Shown: positions 44,440 to 54,700 of the stretch, piece by piece
How the letters are laid out: each line of letters opens with the position of its first letter
Numbering within the stretch: position 1 is the stretch's first letter
Source: Pseudomonas sp. B21-028
Lineage (GTDB): Bacteria; Pseudomonadota; Gammaproteobacteria; Pseudomonadales; Pseudomonadaceae
Direction: 5' to 3'
Assembly (NCBI RefSeq): GCF_024749045.1
Contig: NZ_CP087184.1
Span: 3,100,001 to 3,164,000 of the forward strand
DNA length: 64,000 nucleotides
Notes under the pieces: model-generated
The model's database searches: none
Seen by the model: the letters and a program-made list of their open reading frames with translations, nothing else
What the model was told of the DNA's origin: nothing
Program-made: the position numbers and the translations under genes

Positions 44440-46107
44440 TCAGGCTCCGATCATCTCCCGGACCTTGGCCGTCAACAGATCAAACGTGAACGGCTTGGTG
44501 ATCATTTGCATGCCCGGGTCGAGGAATCCGCCGCGTACCGCGGCATGCTCAGCGTAGCCGGTGATGAACAGCACCCGCAGGTCCGGACGGATCTGCCGGC
44601 CGACTTCCGCCAGTTGCCGGCCGTTCATGCCCGGCAAGCCCACGTCGCTGATCAACAGATCGATGCGCTGGCCTGACTGAAGAATCGGCACCGCACCGTT
44701 GGCATCGCTGGCTTCAAGGAAGGTATAGCCCAGTTCGCCCAGTACCGAGCTGACCAGTACCCGCACTGCCGGATCGTCTTCGACGATCAGCACGGTCTCG
44801 CCGGCGTGCGCGGGGGCGGCATGTTGGCTGTCGATTAACGACTCGGGTGTTTCTTCGCCCAGGAAACGCGGCAGATAAAGACTGACAGTCGTGCCTTTGC
44901 CAACGTCACTGTCGATGGCCACATGGCCACGTGATTGCTTGCTGAACCCATAGATCATCGACAGGCCCAGCCCCGTGCCCTGGCCGATGGGCTTGGTAGT
45001 GAAAAATGGATCGAATGCGCGATTGATGACCGATTCGGGCATGCCGCAGCCGCTGTCCTGCACGCTCAGCACCACATAGTCGCCGGGCTCCAGGTTGGTG
45101 TACGCGTCGGTGAAACCGGCATCCAGATGTTTGTTGAACGTGCGCACCACCAGCATTCCGCCTTCCGGCATGGCATCGCGTGCGTTGAGCACAAGGTTGA
45201 GCAGGGCGCTTTCCAGTTGATTGGGATCGGCCTCGGCAATCCAGAGCTCCTCGTCCAGCTGCATGTCCAGCCGGATGCTCTCGTTGAGACTGCGCTGCAA
45301 CAGCTCCCCCATGGACAACACCAGCGTGTTCATCTGCACGGCCTTGGAATCCAGCGACTGGCGCCGGGAGAAAGCCAGCAGGCGATGGGTCAGGCCGGCT
45401 GCTCGGTTGGCTGAGGTCACGCCGAGGTCGATCAGGCTGTCCAGGTCTTCGGTGCGCCCCCGGGCCAGGCGCCTGCGCAGCAGTTCGAGGCTGCCGATGA
45501 TGCCGGTCAACATGTTGTTGAAGTCGTGGGCGATACCGCCGGTCAGTTGGCCGACCGCTTCCATTTTCTGCGATTGACGCAGGGCTTCCTCATTGTGGCG
45601 CAATTGAGCGGTGCGCTCTTCTACCTGCTGTTCAAGGGTTTCGAGGGTATTTTGCAGGCGCAGCTCACTGTTGCTGAGATCGATCAGGCGTTCCCGGGCC
45701 TCGTATTGCCTTCGTCGACCGCGCAAGGCGGTGGTGACCAGGCTGACCAGGGTCACCGGATGGAACGGGCGCTCCAGGAACGTTACGTTGCCCAGCTGCA
45801 TGCCGATACGTGCCGCCGGGTTCTGTTCCGGACCCCCATGATGGGTCAGCAGGACGATGGGCAGGTCGGACCAGGCCGGCTGCTGTTCAATATGCTGGAA
45901 CAATGTCTCCAGGTCGGGACCTACCAAGGCTTCCGACGAGATGACCAACAGGCCGGCGCCATGTTCAAGTTCCTCACACAACTGCCCCAGGTGGCGACAA
46001 ATGAGGCCGGTGAACCCGGCTTCATTCAGGATCATCAGGGCGATCTGGCTGTCCCGTCCCAGCGGCGCGAGGATCAGTGCCCGCTCCGACAGGGGCTCGA
46101 CCGACAT
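44440..46107 (-). CDS. Hybrid histidine kinase coupled to KaiC-like protein
   Basis: 555 aa from ATG at 46107 (TGATG overlap with the kaiC-like stop). The N-terminal about 130 residues form a receiver-like domain without an obvious phospho-Asp motif (VISSEALVG). Then a coiled coil, HisKA with His194 (GGIAHDFNNML), HATPase (GQGTGLGLSMIYGF) and a C-terminal receiver with Asp in LISDVGLPGMNG. Soluble, so the signal is internal; the KaiC-like partner is the obvious input. Confidence 0.9.
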   Translation of the reverse strand: MSVEPLSERALILAPLGRDSQIALMILNEAGFTGLICRHLGQLCEELEHGAGLLVISSEALVGPDLETLFQHIEQQPAWSDLPIVLLTHHGGPEQNPAARIGMQLGNVTFLERPFHPVTLVSLVTTALRGRRRQYEARERLIDLSNSELRLQNTLETLEQQVEERTAQLRHNEEALRQSQKMEAVGQLTGGIAHDFNNMLTGIIGSLELLRRRLARGRTEDLDSLIDLGVTSANRAAGLTHRLLAFSRRQSLDSKAVQMNTLVLSMGELLQRSLNESIRLDMQLDEELWIAEADPNQLESALLNLVLNARDAMPEGGMLVVRTFNKHLDAGFTDAYTNLEPGDYVVLSVQDSGCGMPESVINRAFDPFFTTKPIGQGTGLGLSMIYGFSKQSRGHVAIDSDVGKGTTVSLYLPRFLGEETPESLIDSQHAAPAHAGETVLIVEDDPAVRVLVSSVLGELGYTFLEASDANGAVPILQSGQRIDLLISDVGLPGMNGRQLAEVGRQIRPDLRVLFITGYAEHAAVRGGFLDPGMQMITKPFTFDLLTAKVREMIGA

Positions 46108-47609
46108 CACTTGAGCTCATCCCTGAGCAGCGGATGGTCCGCTCCCATATAGGTCGGTACCCCACGCAAGACACCCTGGAAGGCTTCGAGTGGCTCACCG
46201 ATCGTCATGCCTTGCCCGCTGATGCGGTACTCGCGGATCGTCGATTCGTGACTGCCGGTGCGCTTCTTGATGATGGAAATCGCCCGGCGGACCTTACCCA
46301 GCGCCTCGAAATACCGCAACAGAATCACGGTGTCGGCCAGATAAGTAATGTCCACCGGCGCCTGCATGTCGCCTACCAGGCCATGTTGCGCAACGGTCAT
46401 GAAGGTCGCTGCTCCCTTGCGATTGAGGTACAGCAACAGCTCGTGCATGTGCAGCACCAGAGCGTTTTCTTCCGGCATGGCGGCCTGATAGCCGTTGATG
46501 CTGTCGATCACCACGGTCTTGATGTCACCTTCATCGACGCAACGACGTACCCGGTGGGAGAACTCGCCGGGGGACAACTCGGCGGCGTCCACCTGTTCGA
46601 TCAACAGGTTTCCGGTCCCTTGCAGCGCCTGCAGGTCGATGCCGATATTTTTCATGCGTTCGAACAGCAGGCCCAGCTCTTCGTCGAAAATGAACAAGGC
46701 AGCCTTTTCGCCGCGATGCACGGCGGCTGCGGCGAAAATCATCGAGATCAGCGACTTCCCGGTACCGGCCGGCCCCAGGATCAAGGTGCTGGACCCCGTC
46801 TCGATACCGCCACCCAGCAGGGCATCCATTTCCGCGATGCCACTGGACAGTTGTTTGCGCAGGTATTGCCCGCGATGCTCGGCCGCCACCAGGCGCGGGA
46901 AGACATGAAGACCGTCCCCCATGATCGTGAAGTCGTGGAAGCCGCCACGGTATTTTTGCCCGCGATACTTGACCACCCGGATCCGTCGCCGCTCGGCGCC
47001 ATAATTGGGCGTCAGCTCTTCGAGGCGAATCACCCCGTGGGCGACACTGTGCACGGTCTTGTCCAGGGATTCGGTGGTCAGGTCATCGAGCAGCAGGACG
47101 GTGGCGTCGTAGCGCACGAAGTAATGCTTGATCGCCAGGATCTGCCGACGATAGCGCAGGGAGCTCTGTGCCAGCAGGCGGATCTCCGACAGGCTGTCGA
47201 GTACGACCCGGGTCGGCTTGACCTGTTCGACCACCTCGAAGATTTGCCGCGTCGCTTCCCCAAGCTCCAGGTCCGATGAATACAGCAGACTTTGCTGATG
47301 CTCGGCATTGAGCAGGCTTTCAGGCGGCGTCAGTTCGAAAATGTGAATGTTTTCGTCCAGCGTCCATCCGTGGGAGGTCGCGCCTTGGCGCAGTTCACGC
47401 TCGGTTTCCGACAGCGTGATGTACAACGAGCGCTCGCCGGCCTTGGCGCCGGCCAACAGGAAATGCAACGCGACCGTGGTCTTGCCGGTGCCGGGTTCCC
47501 CTTCCAACAGGAACACATGGCCGCGGGACAAGCCACCGGAGAGGATATTGTCCAGTCCTTCGATACCGGTGGCGGCTTTGGCGTCGATCAACTCGTTCAA
47601 TGTAGACAA
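46107..47609 (-). CDS. KaiC-like RecA-fold ATPase
   Basis: 500 aa from TTG at 47609, chosen because AGGGGG lies 6 nt upstream and the product then starts MSTLNEL; an ATG at 47624 is the alternative. Two tandem KaiC domains: Walker A GEPGTGKT (37-44) with ExE in LSETERELR, and Walker A GPAGTGKS (279-286) with FDEELGLLF. No KaiA or KaiB is nearby. In non-cyanobacteria such proteins act in stress signalling with a histidine kinase, which fits the coupled downstream gene. Confidence 0.88.
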   Translation of the reverse strand: MSTLNELIDAKAATGIEGLDNILSGGLSRGHVFLLEGEPGTGKTTVALHFLLAGAKAGERSLYITLSETERELRQGATSHGWTLDENIHIFELTPPESLLNAEHQQSLLYSSDLELGEATRQIFEVVEQVKPTRVVLDSLSEIRLLAQSSLRYRRQILAIKHYFVRYDATVLLLDDLTTESLDKTVHSVAHGVIRLEELTPNYGAERRRIRVVKYRGQKYRGGFHDFTIMGDGLHVFPRLVAAEHRGQYLRKQLSSGIAEMDALLGGGIETGSSTLILGPAGTGKSLISMIFAAAAVHRGEKAALFIFDEELGLLFERMKNIGIDLQALQGTGNLLIEQVDAAELSPGEFSHRVRRCVDEGDIKTVVIDSINGYQAAMPEENALVLHMHELLLYLNRKGAATFMTVAQHGLVGDMQAPVDITYLADTVILLRYFEALGKVRRAISIIKKRTGSHESTIREYRISGQGMTIGEPLEAFQGVLRGVPTYMGADHPLLRDELK

Positions 47610-47742
47610 AAATAGCCCCCTCATGGCCAGGGAAGTAAAGCAGGTTGAAGTGTCTGAATACTTGACCTTTGGCGGTGATAGCGGTTCCACTTCCTGCACA
47701 AAACCTGTGAAGTTGTACAGCTTTTGGAGCGATCGGGGCTTT

Positions 47743-48798
47743 CTACAACCCTTGCTGCAACGCCGGGTCGTCCGGGTTCAGCTGCTCCAGTTTCGCCAGC
47801 AGGATCTGCACATTCTGCAGTTGCCCGGTTTCCTTCCAATAGTTGATCAGCAGTACCCGCGCCTTGCGGTCGGCGGGGTAGCGCTGGACAATTTCCTGCA
47901 ACTGTTTCTGCGCGGCTTCCAGCTCTTGCTCGGCATGCAGGGTGGTTGCCAGGTCGTAACGGTAATGACGATTGTCTGGCTCGAGTTCCACGGCTTTTGC
48001 CAGGCCGAGCACCGCGTATTCGCTCTGGCCATGCTGCAGCAACCACATGCCCAGCGCATGTTGCAGATAAGCTGACTGCGGCTGGCTTTGCAACTGTTTG
48101 GCGAGTAACTGTCGCGCGGCTTCGCCCTGACCCTGTTTGTCGAGCACTTCGATCTGCGTGACCACTGCCGGCAGGTTGTCCGGCTGCAGGCGCAGGGCTT
48201 GCTCCAGGGCTTGCTGGGCCTTTTTCAGCTCGGCGTTGTGCAGGTGCAAGCGGGCGAGTTGATAGAAAGACTCGGTGGTTTGCGGGCCGTCCTGAAGCTG
48301 CTGTTCCCAGGTATCGATGGCCAGCTGCATGGCGCCGAAGTACAAACCAAGGTCATCCGGCGACAGGCCCAGCAGTGCGTTCACGGCGGCAAATCGCACG
48401 CTGGGATCGTCATCGTCGAGCAACGGCCCCAGCAGCAGGCTGCGCTGTCCCGTCGGCACCAGCCCGACAATGCTGGCGATGGCGGCCCGACGTACATCCG
48501 GCGATTCGTTGTGCAGGTCCGCATCCGCCAGTTTCAGAGCCTGGGGGCTCGGGTAGTTCGGCAGTTCGGCGTGCAGCCACACACGCCGCTTGGGCGAGAG
48601 ATCCGGACGCCCCAATTGCTGATAGAGCATTCTTGCCGCGCCTGGAAGCCCATTGCGTGCCTGTGCCAAGGCTTCACTGTAGCCGCGCTTGACGGCCTCG
48701 GGGATCTGAGGGGTGCTGCTGTGCCGCCACAACGCAACCAGACCGATCATCAGGACGACCCCAAGGCTGAGCAGAAGATAGCGGCGAGACGAGAGCAT
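47743..48798 (-). CDS. Membrane-anchored TPR protein
   Basis: 351 aa from ATG at 48798 (MLSSRRYLLLSLGVVLMIGL). The longer in-frame extension runs through a REP and is rejected. One N-terminal membrane helix, then a HEAT-like segment (SPDVRRAAIASIVGL, DPSVRFAAVNALLGL) and several TPR units (ALEQALRLQPDNLPA, GLAKAVELEPDNRHYRYDLA) to the C-terminus. Probable periplasmic scaffold. It lies upstream of the kaiC-like gene on the same strand. Confidence 0.82.
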   Translation of the reverse strand: MLSSRRYLLLSLGVVLMIGLVALWRHSSTPQIPEAVKRGYSEALAQARNGLPGAARMLYQQLGRPDLSPKRRVWLHAELPNYPSPQALKLADADLHNESPDVRRAAIASIVGLVPTGQRSLLLGPLLDDDDPSVRFAAVNALLGLSPDDLGLYFGAMQLAIDTWEQQLQDGPQTTESFYQLARLHLHNAELKKAQQALEQALRLQPDNLPAVVTQIEVLDKQGQGEAARQLLAKQLQSQPQSAYLQHALGMWLLQHGQSEYAVLGLAKAVELEPDNRHYRYDLATTLHAEQELEAAQKQLQEIVQRYPADRKARVLLINYWKETGQLQNVQILLAKLEQLNPDDPALQQGL

Positions 48799-48927
48799 GC
48801 AGGTAATCCATGACCGGGAACTTGAAGTGTCGCAAGCTTCGGTCAGGTGGGGGGCTGAGTCAAACCTTGTAATAGGTATGCAGGGCCTGTGAGTACAGGT
48901 TGCTCTTGCTGGAATGTGGCAAGAACC

Positions 48928-49012
48928 TGGTGGGAGCGAGCCTGCTCGCGATAGCTCCCTGCCAGTCGGCATCCCTATTGACTGACACGCTGCCATCGCG
49001 AGCAGGCTCGCT
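48928..49012. repeat. REP pair, second copy interrupted by the IS element
   Basis: A complete REP at 48928-48955 and an opposed one starting at 48991 that breaks after GCAGGCTCGCT (49012). Its missing half CTCCCACAGGGG resumes at 50189 on the other side of the IS110 element. Confidence 0.92.
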
Positions 49013-49020
49013 TGTATGGT

Positions 49021-49185
49021 AGGACTTGAAGGGAGGAGGAGGGACAAGGCTCGATTCTGACTGTTAGCCGCAGTACAGACCGTGGGAGATTTCGCCCCTC
49101 CTCCTTTCACCCAAGCGCCGATAAAGAATGCTTCTGGCCTAGACCGACGATAGGAACAAGCCTGCGCCTCTGGGTGAACCCTTCA
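49021..49185 (+). ncRNA. Candidate IS110 bridge RNA with readable guides
   Basis: Target loop: a 13-bp helix GGGAGGAGGAGGG (49031-49043) with CCCTCCTCCTTTC (49096-49108) encloses an internal loop and an apical hairpin TCTGACTG/CAGTACAGA (49056-49079). The 5' side of the loop carries GGCTCG (49048-49053), identical to the REP left of the core. The 3' side carries GTGGGAG (49082-49088), the reverse complement of CTCCCAC right of the core. Donor loop: helix TTCACCCA (49106-49113)/TGGGTGAA (49171-49178) encloses AGAAT (49125-49129), identical to the element's right end, and ACAAG (49156-49160), complementary to CTTGT at its left end. RNA limits are approximate. Confidence 0.8.
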
Positions 49186-49216
49186 AGTGTTCAAACCTTA
49201 GCCCGGAGGATTTTCA

Positions 49217-50164
49217 ATGGCAATGCCCATCGCCATCACCCAGCCAATCGTAGGTGTCGATGTCGCCAAGGATGAGTTGGTGATTTATCACGCCGAATCT
49301 GACCGGCTCGAAACAATCCCCAATACCAAAGCTGCGATCAAGAAATGGCTCAAGGCGTTGCCCGCATCAGTGGATGTTGCCATTGAAGCGACCAATACCT
49401 ATCACCAGGAATTCGCCGATCTGGCCTATGCGCAAGGTTGTGTGATCTACATAATCGACGGTTACGAGCTCAGTCATTACCGCAAGGGCGTGAAAGTTCG
49501 CGCGAAAACAGATGCGCTGGATGCTCGCTTGCTGGCCCGCTACTTAAACAACGAAGGCCACCTGTTGCACCCTTGGGTCCCGCCATCACCCCTTTATTGC
49601 CGACTTATAAGCCTTTTCCGGCGCCGCGCAGCTCTGGTTCAGGCGCGTGTCAGCCTCAAGCAGAGCTGGGCGAACGAGCCATTGCTCGAAGCGGCTTTCA
49701 AAAGCCAGATAAACGCTATGCAAAGACTGGAAACCCTGCTCGAAAAAACCATTCAGACGCAGTTGGAACAAGCCGGTTTGGCTCATCAGCTCAAGCGTTG
49801 CATGAAAGTCGAAGGCATCGGCTTGTTGAGTGGTGCTCGTTTAATCGCGTCGTTTCAGCGTGGGGACTTCAGGAATGCCGATGCTTTCATCGCTTTTCTG
49901 GGCTTGGATTTGCGCATAGCGGACTCGGGGAAAAAGAAAGGGCGCCGTTGCTTGTCTAAACGAGGTGATCCAGAGGCGCGTCGCTTGATGCACAACGCCG
50001 CGATGTCGGCGAGCCGCACCGCGGCGTGGAGGGGATTTTATGAGGCCCTAAGGGCTCGAGGACTTAGCACAACCCAAGCACTGGTAGCACTGGCCCGCAA
50101 ACTTGCGCGAGTGGTATTCGCTCTGTTGAAGAACCAGAGCGAATACCTACCAAAATGCATCTAG
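49217..50164 (+). CDS. IS110-family transposase/recombinase
   Basis: 315 aa, intact. The N-terminal RuvC-like DEDD domain has Asp15 (GVDVAKDE), Glu57 (AIEATNTY), Asp99 and Asp102 (KTDALDARL). The C-terminal Tnp domain contains GIGLLSGARLIASFQ and CLSKRGDPEARRL with probable nucleophile Ser247. These spacings match IS621-type bridge-RNA-guided recombinases. The start is preceded by CGGAGGAT. Nothing suggests inactivation. Confidence 0.95.
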   Translation: MAMPIAITQPIVGVDVAKDELVIYHAESDRLETIPNTKAAIKKWLKALPASVDVAIEATNTYHQEFADLAYAQGCVIYIIDGYELSHYRKGVKVRAKTDALDARLLARYLNNEGHLLHPWVPPSPLYCRLISLFRRRAALVQARVSLKQSWANEPLLEAAFKSQINAMQRLETLLEKTIQTQLEQAGLAHQLKRCMKVEGIGLLSGARLIASFQRGDFRNADAFIAFLGLDLRIADSGKKKGRRCLSKRGDPEARRLMHNAAMSASRTAAWRGFYEALRARGLSTTQALVALARKLARVVFALLKNQSEYLPKCI

Positions 50165-50216
50165 GGGGCTAGCCCTGCACCATAGAATCTCCCACAGGGG
50201 CTCGCGGGTGAGAGAT

Positions 50217-50248
50217 AAAAAGCCCCGCATCCAGGGCGGAGGCGGGGC
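50217..50248 (-). terminator. Intrinsic terminator of mexEF-oprN
   Basis: GCCCCGC (50222-50228) pairs with GCGGGGC (50242-50248). On the minus strand the stem is followed by five T. It lies about 50 nt beyond the oprN stop. Confidence 0.88.
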
Positions 50249-50299
50249 AAGGGTCTGGTTGATTGCGGTCAACCAAAGGGGCTCGGTGTGAACGGTTGG

Positions 50300-51721
50300 T
50301 CAGTTGCTGGCGACGGTTTCTGGCTGCCAGCCACCGCCCAGGGCCTTGTAGATCGCGACGATGCCGCGATAAAGGTCGACTTCGGCCTGGGCCTGGGTGT
50401 CTTCGGCGGCCAGGCGTTCGCGCTGGGCGTCGAGCAGCACGAGGAAATCCACGGTGCCTTCGCGGTAGCGGATTTCGGCCAGGTCGGCAGCGGCGCGGCT
50501 GGATTCGCTCTGGCGGATCAACGAGATCAGCCGTTGCTGGCGTTTGCCGTAATCGCTGAAGGCGTTTTCCGATTCTTCCAGGGCCAGTAGTACCTGCTGC
50601 TCATAAGTCGCCAGGGCGCCATCGGCCTCGGCATTGGCACCGCGCAGGCGAGCCCGCACGCTGCCCAGGTCAAAGGCCGCCCAGGTAATGCTCGGGCCCA
50701 GCGCCCAGGCATTGGCCGCCGAGGAGCCGATCTGCGAACCACGCCCTGCGGTAAAGCCAAGGAAGCCGCTCAAGCTGACCCGTGGAAACAGGTCGGCCTT
50801 GGCCACGCCAATGCGCGCGGTGGCCGCGGCCAACTGACGTTCGGCGCTGAGAATGTCCGGGCGACGTTGCAGCAACTGCCCCGGGTCGCCGATCGGCAAG
50901 GCCTTGGCAATGGCCGGCAGGTCTTTGGGGCTCAGGTCCACGCTCAATTTGTCCGGGCGCTCACCCAGCAGAGTGGCGATGCGGTTGCGCTGACGCACCT
51001 GTTCAGCCTGCAACTGCGGCACGCTGGCTTCTACCGAGGCCAGGCGTGCATCGGCACGGACCACGTCCAGCTGATCGCCCACACCGGCATCGCGCAGGCT
51101 TTCGGTGATCTTGCGCGACGCCTGCTGGTTCCTAAGGTTCGCCAGGGCGATTTTTTCCCGCAGCTGGGCGCCGCGCAGTTGACCGTAGGCATCCACCAAC
51201 TCGGCGATCATGGTCACCTGCAGTTGATAGAGATCGGCCTCGGCCGCCTGCTGATCGGCGTCGGTGGCTTCCAGGTTGCGCTGGATGCGCCCGAACAGAT
51301 CCACTTCCCAAGCCATGTCCAGGCCCAGGTCGTAGCGCTCGGTATTGACCCGGTCGGTGGTCTGTCCCGGAATCTGGCCTTTGCCCAGGTTGCTGCTGAC
51401 GCGACTGGTGATGGTCGGCATCGCATCATTGCTGGCGTCGTCGCGAATGGCCCGCGCCGCGCGCAGACGGGCGAAGGCTACGCGCAACTCGCGGTTGCCT
51501 TCCAGGGAACGGCTCACCAGCGCGTTGAGGGTCGGGTCATCGAACTGCTGCCACCAGACACCTTCGAAACGTGCCCGGTCGAAGTTCTTCTGGCCGGCGG
51601 CGCCGTCCGTGGCGGTAGTGATATTCGCTGCCTCGGTTTGCGGTGCCTTGTAGTCCGGCCCCACGGCGCAGGCACTCAGCGCCAGGACCAGCAAGCTCGG
51701 CACGAACACTTTCAAGCTCAT
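50300..51721 (-). CDS. oprN: Outer-membrane efflux lipoprotein, OprN type
   Basis: 473 aa from ATG at 51721. Lipobox LSAC with Cys18, then two OEP repeats of the TolC/NodT family (about 60-250 and 270-460). It forms the trimeric outer-membrane duct for MexEF. It starts 11 nt after mexF. By family it could be called NodT/OprM-like; the OprN name rests on the operon. Confidence 0.88.
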   Translation of the reverse strand: MSLKVFVPSLLVLALSACAVGPDYKAPQTEAANITTATDGAAGQKNFDRARFEGVWWQQFDDPTLNALVSRSLEGNRELRVAFARLRAARAIRDDASNDAMPTITSRVSSNLGKGQIPGQTTDRVNTERYDLGLDMAWEVDLFGRIQRNLEATDADQQAAEADLYQLQVTMIAELVDAYGQLRGAQLREKIALANLRNQQASRKITESLRDAGVGDQLDVVRADARLASVEASVPQLQAEQVRQRNRIATLLGERPDKLSVDLSPKDLPAIAKALPIGDPGQLLQRRPDILSAERQLAAATARIGVAKADLFPRVSLSGFLGFTAGRGSQIGSSAANAWALGPSITWAAFDLGSVRARLRGANAEADGALATYEQQVLLALEESENAFSDYGKRQQRLISLIRQSESSRAAADLAEIRYREGTVDFLVLLDAQRERLAAEDTQAQAEVDLYRGIVAIYKALGGGWQPETVASN

Positions 51722-51732
51722 TGTGGCCAAGC

Positions 51733-54700
51733 TCATTGTTGCGTCTCCAGTTTCAAAGCCCGGGCCGCCTTGCGGGCCTCGCTGCGTTCGACGAAGTTAC
51801 GGATCAGTACATAGAACACAGGGGTGAGCAGCAGGCCGAAGAAGGTCACGCCCAACATCCCCGAGAACACCGCGACACCCATGGCGTGGCGCATTTCGGC
51901 ACCGGCACCGCTGGAGAACACCAGGGGCACCACGCCCATGATGAAGGCCACGGAGGTCATCAGAATCGGCCGCAGCCGCAGGCGGCAGGCTTCCAGGACC
52001 GCTGCCAGCGGGTTCATGCCTTCGAGCTGTTTATCCTTGGCGAACTCGACGATCAGAATCGCGTTCTTGCAGGCAAGTCCCACCAGTACGATCAGGCCGA
52101 TCTGGGTAAAGATGTTGTTGTCGCCACCGGACAGGATCACCCCGGTAATGGCGGACAGCAGGGTCATCGGTACGATCAGGATCACCGCCAGCGGCAGGCT
52201 CCAGCTCTCGTACTGCGCCGCGAGCACCAGGAACGCCAGCAGAACGCAGAGCGGGAACACGAACAGCGCGGTGTTGCCCGAGAGGATCTGCTGGTACGTC
52301 AGGTCAGTCCACTCGTAGGTCATGCCGTTGGGCAATTCCTCCTTGAGCAGTTTCTCGATGGCTTTCTCGGCCTGGCCGGAGCTGTAGCCCGGGGCGGCGG
52401 CCCCGTTGATTTCAGCAGTGATGAAGCCGTTGTAGTGCATCACGCGATCCGGTCCCGAGGAGTCGCTGACCTTGATGAAGGTCGCCAGCGGGATCATCTC
52501 GCCACGGTTATTACGCACCTTGAGCTGGCCGATCTGGTCGGATTCGAGGCGGAATTGCTGCTCGGCCTGGACGTTGACCTGGTAGGTGCGGCCGAAGCGG
52601 TTGAAGTCGTTGGCATACAGCGAACCCAGGTAGATCTGCAGGGTGTCGAAGATGTCGCTGACGGCCACGCCGTGGGTCTTGGCTTTTTCGCGGTCGATGG
52701 CGGCATCGACCTGGGGCACGTTCACGGTGTAGCTGGTGAACAGCCCGGCCAGTTCAGGCACGCTGCGGCTCTTGGTGATGATGTTCATGGTTTCCTTGTA
52801 CAGCTCGTCGTAGCCCAGGTTGCCCCGGTCTTCGATCTGCAGGCGGAAACCACCGATGGTGCCCAGGCCCTGTACCGGCGGCGGCGGGAAGATCGCCATG
52901 TAGGCTTCCTGGATGCTCGCGAACTGGCCGTTCAAGGCACCGGCGATGGCGCCGGCCGACTGGCTCGGGTCCTTGCGCTCGTCGAAGGGCTTGAGGGTCA
53001 CGAACACGATGCCGGCGTTCGGGCTGTTGGTGAAACCGTTGATCGACAGGCCAGGGAACGCCACCGCGCTTTGCACGCCCGGTTGCTTGAGCGCCAGGTC
53101 GGACATGCGCTTGATCACGTCTTCGGTGCGGTCCAGGCTCGCGGCATCCGGTAATTGGGCGAAGGCCACCAGGTATTGCTTGTCCTGGCCGGGCACGAAG
53201 CCGGTCGGGGTGTTGGAGAAGCCGAAGAACGTCAACACCATCAGGCCCGCGTAGACGAACAGGGCGATGCCGCTGCTGCGGATCACGCGGCCTACGGCAC
53301 CCACGTAGTTGTGGCTGGCACGTTCGAAGAAGCGGTTGAACGGACGGAACAGCCAACTGCCCAGCAGTGCATCGAGGAACCTGGAGAAGCGGTCCTTGGG
53401 CGCATCATGGCTCTTGAGCAGTACCGCGGCCAGGGCCGGCGACAGGGTCAGAGAGTTGAACGCAGAAATCACGGTGGAAATGGCAATGGTCAGGGCGAAC
53501 TGTTTATAGAACTGCCCGGTCAAGCCGCTGATGAAGGCCGCCGGAACGAACACCGCGCAGAGCACCAGGGCGGTGGCGATGATCGGGCCGGTCACTTCGC
53601 TCATGGCGCGCTTGGTCGCTTCCACCGGGGTGAGGCCGAGGCCGATGTTCCGTTCGACGTTTTCCACCACGACGATGGCGTCATCCACCACGATACCAAT
53701 GGCCAACACCAACCCGAACAGCGAAAGCGCGTTCAGCGAGAAGCCGAACAGGTGCATCACGGCGAACGTACCGATCAACGACACCGGCACGGCCACCAGC
53801 GGGATGATCGAGGCGCGCCAGGTCTGCAGGAACAGGATCACCACCAGCACCACGAGAATCAGCGCTTCGAAGAGGGTGTGAACCACTGCCTCGATGGAGC
53901 CGCGCACGAAGATCGTCGGGTCGTAGACGATGCTGTAGTCCATGCCCGCCGGGAAGTTCTTCTTCAGTTCGTCCATCTTGGCATGGACGTCGTTGGAGAT
54001 CTGGATGGCGTTGGAACCCGGGCGCTGGAAGATCGGGATCGCCACCGCCGGCTGGTTATCGAGCAACGAGCGCAGCGCGTACTGGCTGGAGCCCAGCTCC
54101 ACCCGGGCAATGTCTTTCAGGCGGGTGATTTCACCATTGGCGCCGGAACGGATGATGATGTTCTCGAACTCTTCCTCATTCACCAGGCGACCCTGGGTAT
54201 TGATCGAGAGCTGGAAAGCCTGGGCATTCGGCGCCGGTGGCGCACCCAGGGCACCGGCCGCGACCTGACGGTTCTGCTCGCGAATGGCGGTGACCACATC
54301 GGTGGCGGTCAGGTTGCGCGAAGCGGTCTTGTTCGGATCCAGCCAGACCCGCAGGGAGTAATCGCCCATGCCGAACAGTTGCACATCACCCACACCGCCC
54401 AGGCGCGCCAGCTCATCCTTGATGTTGAGCAGGGCGTAGTTGGACAGGTAGAGCATGTCGTAGCGTTTGTCCGGCGAGGTCAAGTGCACGACCATGGTCA
54501 GGTCGGGCGATGCCTTGTCCACCGTGATGCCGATCCGGGTCACTTCTTCCGGGAGCTTGGGCTCGGTCCGGGTGACGCGGTTCTGCACCTGCACCTGGGC
54601 ATTGTCCAGGTCGGTGCCCAGGGCAAAGGTGATGGTCAGGGTGATCTTGCCGTCAGCGGTGGATTGCGAGGACATGTACAGCATGTTCTCGATGCCGGTG

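Follow-up and report, generated by a model that had tools for sequence, protein, structure and literature searches.

A REP-inserted IS110-group element of Pseudomonas with a predicted bridge RNA whose target guides vary with the flanking repeat

Bridge RNAs of the IS110 group of insertion sequences have been published, together with their handshake bases and with covariation across 5,511 target-RNA pairs (PMC11208160, PMC11208158), and insertion of ISPpu9 and ISPpu10 into REPs has been in print since 2006 (PMC1525189). ISPpu10 is also one of six elements with predicted LTG, RTG, LDG and RDG according to the legend of Extended Data Fig. 10c (PMC11208160), and natural redirection has been reported for the pairs ISEc11/ISXne4 and ISEc21/ISMch6 (PMC11187229). 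The mechanism is thus known; what is added here is the element itself, a series of guides differing by single letters together with REP variants, a departure from the published core pairing and a closing stem, the last two of which may already show in the ISPpu10 figure.

The element studied here lies in a 64,000-nt stretch of the genome of Pseudomonas sp. B21-028 (hereafter the window, meaning the whole stretch analysed), where it occupies positions 49013-50190 with the right CT counted (1,178 bp) and is apparently intact (Table 1). It resembles IS621 of E. coli, as described in PMC11208160 and PMC11208158, in its DEDD plus Ser recombinase, upstream RNA region, order of guides (left target, right target, left donor, right donor), CT core, ATA/TAT subterminal repeat, REP target and a handshake base. 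On the same descriptions, the right target guide of IS621 has 4 nt, extendable to 7, whereas that of the element has 7 nt; in the left guides of the element one core base usually has no partner, a departure from the rule given for IS621; and a stem joins the 5' and 3' regions of the element's RNA, whereas a 5' stem loop is described for IS621. The subterminal repeat (ACCATA at 50179-50184 with TATGGT; 6 bp) exceeds the 2-3 bp stated for the IS110 group (PMC11208160).

Among Pseudomonas elements, ISPpu10 (P. putida KT2440, IS110 family), compared by description only and not by sequence, core letters or RNA shape, is alike in that all seven copies lie in REPs with a 2-bp direct repeat (PMC1525189). 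ISPpu9 of the same strain, likewise compared by description, is an IS110-family REP occupant (7/7 copies in REPs; PMC1525189, PMC8450116) that differs in having Asr9, an antisense RNA of about 180 nt to its 5'-UTR (PMC8450116). Asr9 is described as stable, its overproduction raised transposition, and the ISPpu9 repeat is given as AG, or CT on the other strand (PMC8450116); Asr9 might be the bridge RNA of ISPpu9. ISPa11 (P. aeruginosa, IS1111 type) is a REP-targeting, RNA-guided DEDD element as well, but is described with a non-coding region that is usually downstream, longer subterminal repeats and a top-strand complement preceding the bottom-strand match (PMC11187229, PMC1525189). Membership of the IS1111 group was rejected: that group has a long right end, subterminal inverted repeats of 7-17 bp and the top-strand complement first, whereas the element has a long left end (204 nt), a short right end (24 nt from stop codon to core), a 6-bp repeat and the bottom-strand guide first.

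We put the probability that the element is an IS110-group insertion sequence inserting by bridge-RNA-guided recombination at roughly 94%. The catalytic residues, the split REP, the coupling of guides to flanks, the empty REPs and the junction layout all favour bridge-RNA guidance at the sequence level, where the predicted anatomy, the insertion point and the guide changes that accompany target changes can be read. Transcription, RNP formation and movement are proposed by analogy: the element would circularise, as IS621 suggests, and the bridge RNA would join the recombinase; the target loop would pair with the REP, using its left guide for the bottom strand and its right guide for the top one, and the donor loop with the AGAAT-CT-TGT junction; and the DEDD/Ser enzyme would cut after CT and exchange strands.

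Table 1. Features of the element and its REP site, in window positions
Feature	Positions	Strand	Basis
Left target (LT), REP left half CAGGCTCG	49003..49010	+	sequence; flank shared with second copy L106
Left CT core	49011..49012	+	sequence; layout conserved in relatives
Left end (LE), 204 nt, predicted bridge-RNA region	49013..49216	+	sequence, alignment, fold
TATGGT, left arm of subterminal repeat and -10-like hexamer of predicted junction promoter	49015..49020	+	consensus match
Closing stem, 5' strand, pairs with 49179-49188	49024..49033	+	fold, covariation
Target-domain stem, 5' strand, pairs with 49096-49105	49034..49043	+	window's own fold; outside covariation count
Left target guide AGGCTCG (motif GGCTCG at 49048-49053); core positions 49054-49055 = AT	49047..49053	+	guide-flank coupling
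Target-domain inner hairpin, 49056-49063 with 49071-49079, one A bulged	49056..49079	+	fold, covariation
Right target guide GTGGGAG, reverse complement of CT-CCCAC	49082..49088	+	sequence, relatives
Target-loop handshake bases AT	49089..49090	+	first complementary to last left-donor base, 55/55 rows
Donor domain, closed by CACCCA/TGGGTG and GCGC/GCGC	49108..49176	+	fold, covariation
Left donor guide AAAGAAT (motif AGAAT at 49125-49129); 6/7 letters match right end ATAGAAT	49123..49129	+	alignment
Right donor guide ACAAG, reverse complement of CT-TGT	49156..49160	+	sequence, alignment
Donor-loop handshake bases CC	49161..49162	+	first complementary to last left-target base, 54/55 rows
Closing stem, 3' strand	49179..49188	+	fold, covariation
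Recombinase gene, 315 aa, D15 E57 D99 D102 S237	49217..50164	+	ORF, domains, residue alignment
TAGCCC, -35-like hexamer of predicted circle-junction promoter, 17 nt from TATGGT	50170..50175	+	3/6 letters of TTGACA
Left donor, element right end ATAGAAT	50182..50188	+	identical in 55/55 rows
Right CT core	50189..50190	+	sequence
Right target (RT), REP right half CCCAC	50191..50195	+	sequence; layout in relatives

The recombinase carries the Pfam domains DEDD_Tnp_IS110 (PF01548) and Transposase_20 (PF02371), scores 182.4 bits against NCBIfam NF033542, 'IS110 family RNA-guided transposase' (cut-off 140), and is related by sequence to two solved structures, those of IS621 (8wt6, E=4.2e-23) and ISCro4 (9t56, E=6.7e-19), the likeness to ISCro4 being a sequence match only. 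D15, E57, D99, D102, S237 and G238 are identical in 55/55 aligned rows, the window included. The C-terminal part (161-284) also resembles the TIGR-Tas RNA-guided endonuclease model NF052498 at a sub-threshold 35.1 bits (cut-off 100).

The insertion point is the CT of a Pseudomonas REP (CAGGCTCG-CT-CCCAC), the outer neighbours being GCGAGCAGGCTCG-CT on the left and CCCACA on the right. The letters read GGCTCG-CT at 49005-49012 and AGAAT-CT-CCCAC at 50184-50195, with CT at both ends (49011 and 50189). The host genome (6.49 Mb) contains one other long match, L106, which is 99% identical, and two matches to the protein; L106 splits another REP at the identical point (GGCTCG-CT-CCCACA) and has different outer flanks. 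No copy at an unrelated site was found in this genome, and the original prediction of an apparently intact, REP-programmed element is supported by the conserved catalytic residues, the REP split at CT and the guide-flank coupling described below. The REP 13-mer GGCTCGCTCCCAC occurs 1,080 times in the host genome (543 + 537; reversed control 0). There are 20 occurrences in window positions 1-64000 (11 + 9), a high density of REP sites in the surroundings of the element. In a search for empty sites, the left flank was present in 10/10 relatives searched and the right flank lay near it in 4/8 relatives examined; three of these four (G204, G038, G289) have an uninterrupted REP and no element at the orthologous intergenic place, and the fourth (G123) has other sequence there.

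Relatives were collected by a scan of genome contigs, which returned 45 loci (44 from Pseudomonas and one from a Woeseiaceae bin at 45% identity); within the genus Pseudomonas, 72/398 genomes gave a match (E<=1e-20), and a search of a plasmid collection with the protein gave zero matches at the same threshold. We retrieved 130 stretches from relatives and worked with 176 oriented sequences (175 loci plus the window), 170 of them with a recognisable left end, which amounted to 56 distinct left ends. Four loci with an incomplete 5' part (L070, L072, L074, L075) and two in which no left end was found (L060, L061) were excluded; L171 was omitted from the 55-row alignment and from the count over 169 copies, and L076-L105, at the same places as other loci, were used for the guide check only. 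Some assemblies are present twice (e.g., L063/L139), which inflates copy counts and leaves the tests on distinct pairs unaffected.

Coupling between guide and target was assessed by comparing the letters before the core with guide columns fixed from the window, over seven positions. In 27 distinct flank/guide pairs, 153/189 letters match, compared with 112.0 (sd 5.2) for shuffled guides, and 0/10,000 shuffles reach the observed value. Shuffling within clades defined by transposase identity of at least 70, 80 and 85% reached the observed match in 0, 2 and 67 of 20,000 trials, respectively, and a rerun without L063, L201 and L216 gave 1 and 11 of 20,000 at 80 and 85%. The guide steps among relatives include AGGCTCG, AAGCTCG, AAGCCCG, AAGCCGG and AAGCCAG, and between elements with 89-91% identical transposases guide and flank differ at the same letters. 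With wobble allowed, the 169 copies show no left-side mismatch in 104 cases, one in 40, two in 12 and three or more in 13. The expectation that copies in relatives sit at sites matching their guides stands for most, and the few poor matches are these 13, which comprise nine shifted-looking guides, the odd flank of L063/L139 and the near-miss sites of L226/L228. In the shifted group (L201-L204 and L216-L220; G127, G382) the left guide is apparently displaced by one base (AGCTCG then TCA) and the REP flanks are ordinary. The left flank of L063/L139 (G185:C10) is not a REP half, and the element is bordered by CCCACATTTGGTAG-CT at either end, an arrangement that may reflect a rearrangement or unusual donor use.

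On the right side, the flank is CTCCCAC in 156/170 copies (a right end is absent from one of them). Ten copies have CTCCTAC instead, of which six (L146-L150, L224) have a right guide that complements this flank exactly and four (L154, L155, L178, L212) retain GTGGGAG, with G-T wobble possible; L073 combines the flank CTTTATT with a matching guide. The right guide follows a changed right flank in three lineages (L146-L150, L224 and L073), and in L224 and L073 both target halves and both guides have changed. Within the 55 rows, a single right-side mismatch is present in each of L059, L192, L194 and L197. The right-side shuffle, with 6 distinct pairs, was not significant (1,205 of 20,000).

Guides were also compared with the REPs of the whole host genome. 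Four REP variants were counted in 35 genomes, and the 26 whose guide equals one variant were scored; the other nine (G093, G216, G363, G384, G127, G215, G010, G253, G382) were excluded because their guides fall outside the four counted variants. G289 was scored by the guide of three of its four retrieved copies, and the guide of G110 was confirmed at L082, a locus in G110 itself. In 17/26 genomes the guide is identical to the most frequent REP variant of the host, where shuffling predicts 7.2 (2/100,000), and the mean share of counted sites matching the own guide is 0.58 vs 0.27 when shuffled (0/100,000). By inference, six of the nine non-matching guides (those of G204, G289, G038, G266, G366, G295, G099, G213 and G124) could still pair with the commonest variant by wobble. 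The match is a lead and no proof, because shared ancestry remains in the test. On one reading, the bridge RNA would track its host: with the REP family drifting between species, the letters of the left target guide would be replaced one at a time to approach the variant common in each host, and REPs would be a renewable, species-specific landing pad. A search of literature listings found no report of guides tracking REP variants.

A competing explanation, to which we give somewhat less than even odds, is that the bridge-RNA element is real and its match to the host REPs reflects shared ancestry of host and element, with no adaptation of the guide. The 26 genomes are related, the shuffle ignores kinship and 9/26 genomes do not match, all of which would fit shared ancestry; the coupling within clades and the guides that vary in step with flanks among elements with 89-91% identical transposases speak against it, although both counterpoints concern guide-flank coupling and bear only indirectly on the host-wide REP spectrum. 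The same closely related elements also speak against the proposal that the recombinase alone recognises the REP palindrome and that the guide-like letters are by-products, such as captured flank or a conserved regulatory 5'-UTR. REPs are indeed palindromic, the non-IS110 element ISPsy8 (IS3 family) targets them too (PMC1525189), and the 5' region of ISPpu9 is described as a regulatory 5'-UTR (PMC8450116), but guide and flank differ at the same letters, L224 and L073 changed both halves and both guides, and the NCBIfam equivalog of the protein is 'RNA-guided transposase' (annotation only). We judge recognition by the protein alone very improbable.

Bridge-RNA guidance is also consistent with the composition of the left end. 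The four motifs singled out in the original prediction are located as claimed, and they occur together in order in 0/200,000 dinucleotide shuffles of 49013-49216; the two target motifs do so in 111/200,000. Single motifs are not rare in the same 200,000 shuffles (AGAAT 42,516; ACAAG 32,677; GGCTCG 9,211; GTGGGAG 4,898), so that taken by themselves the donor guides would not stand out from chance; their motifs are present and conserved, and the invariance of the donor ends (ATAGAAT in 55/55) leaves no covariation to score. The left target match GGCTCG is present as predicted and extends to the 7-nt AGGCTCG, followed by AT and not CT. That the motif matches and the fold are chance readings of a GC-rich leader has a close to negligible probability, given the ordered motifs and the guide-flank coupling in relatives, even with frequent single motifs and a modest RNAalifold energy on the raw alignment (-15.16 kcal/mol).

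The window RNA folds at -68.9 kcal/mol (z -2.67), and 1/200 shuffles folds as well. The predicted architecture consists of target and donor domains and of a stem that brings the 5' and 3' regions together; of the original two-loop picture, the two stem-loop domains were recovered and the joining stem has to be added. In a hand-set structure with 26 pairs counted, standard pairs make up 92.8% of cells, both sides change in 13 pairs, and 0/500 shuffles reach either value, which related sequences can inflate. The outer target-domain stem and CACCCA/TGGGTG were excluded from this count because the alignment loses their register. The closing stem has a mean pair probability >0.5 in 54/55 rows. Run on the raw alignment, RNAalifold predicted 22 pairs, of which 5 change on both sides, and its consensus pairs three bases of the right target guide, none of those pairs changing on both sides. 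Mean unpaired probabilities over the 55 rows are 0.79 for the left and 0.68 for the right donor guide, and 0.40 and 0.42 for the left and right target guides, which are only partly open in these thermodynamic folds. These values and the paired guide bases speak against a picture of open loops, and the expectation that the motifs lie outside paired stems holds only in part. An Rfam scan of 46000-53000 found no family matching the left end at E<=1; the sole match in that stretch, sX13, was weak (E=1) and was rejected as unrelated. In L171 (G090:C1:3596000-3598600), the only match listed for genome G090, the left end has 121 nt, with the whole donor domain missing and the closing stem and target domain kept.

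For IS621, the core is stated to be part of each of the four pairings (PMC11208160), and in the described structure the left donor guide reaches only the C of the core. In our alignment, the last two letters of the right target guide are AG in every row (invariant columns), the core letters of the left target guide are AT in 37 rows, CA in 10, CT in 7 and AA in 1, and the left donor guide has C at the core position in 2/55. Core pairing in all four guides was thus not found in these rows, as the left guides usually leave a core base unpaired, and the earlier claim of agreement with IS621 is retained for the CT core, the DEDD/Ser recombinase and the loop order, and corrected for the left guides. 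We did not take the IS621 core rule as defining the group because one method, as described, selects orthologues with CT core guides. Since the left guides leave a core position unpaired, core recognition in this clade might rest mainly on the right guides, with the left target guide tracking host REPs, a combination to which we give even odds.

Handshake bases are named 3' of the right guides in the account of the IS621 structure (PMC11208158). Here, in 54/55 rows the first donor-loop handshake base complements the final base of the left target (C-G in 52; G-C in L192 and L194, from one genome; L197 fails), and the second is complementary in 3/55. In the target loop, the first handshake base is A with donor T in 55/55 rows and the second is complementary in 25/55. 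With one compensated change, handshake pairing is supported but not proven.

At the circular junction, the hexamer 17 nt from TATGGT matches TTGACA at 3-4/6 positions in 51/56 distinct elements, and at integrated junctions the hexamer at the same spacing matches at 0-2 positions in 56/56. The -10-like hexamer in relatives is TATGTT or TATGCT, and GATGGT in one. These hexamers fit, weakly, a circle-dependent promoter like that of IS621.

Overall, the element would represent a compact natural bridge recombinase (315 aa, predicted) whose 13-letter target is present 1,080 times in its own genome and whose close relatives form a ladder with steps of one guide letter. Existing genomes and reporter assays could be used to study natural reprogramming, tolerance of wobble, the rules for the core and the pairing of handshake bases, and also how mobile elements adjust when the host repeat that they target drifts. 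Some relatives depart from the usual element layout. Two tandem copies with an identical REP and flank before each are found at L162 (G065:C45:123600-127500), as if element plus flank had been duplicated, and the right end extends about 218 nt beyond the gene in L192-L196 (G079) and about 166 nt beyond it in L230 (G389), the usual length being about 20 nt.
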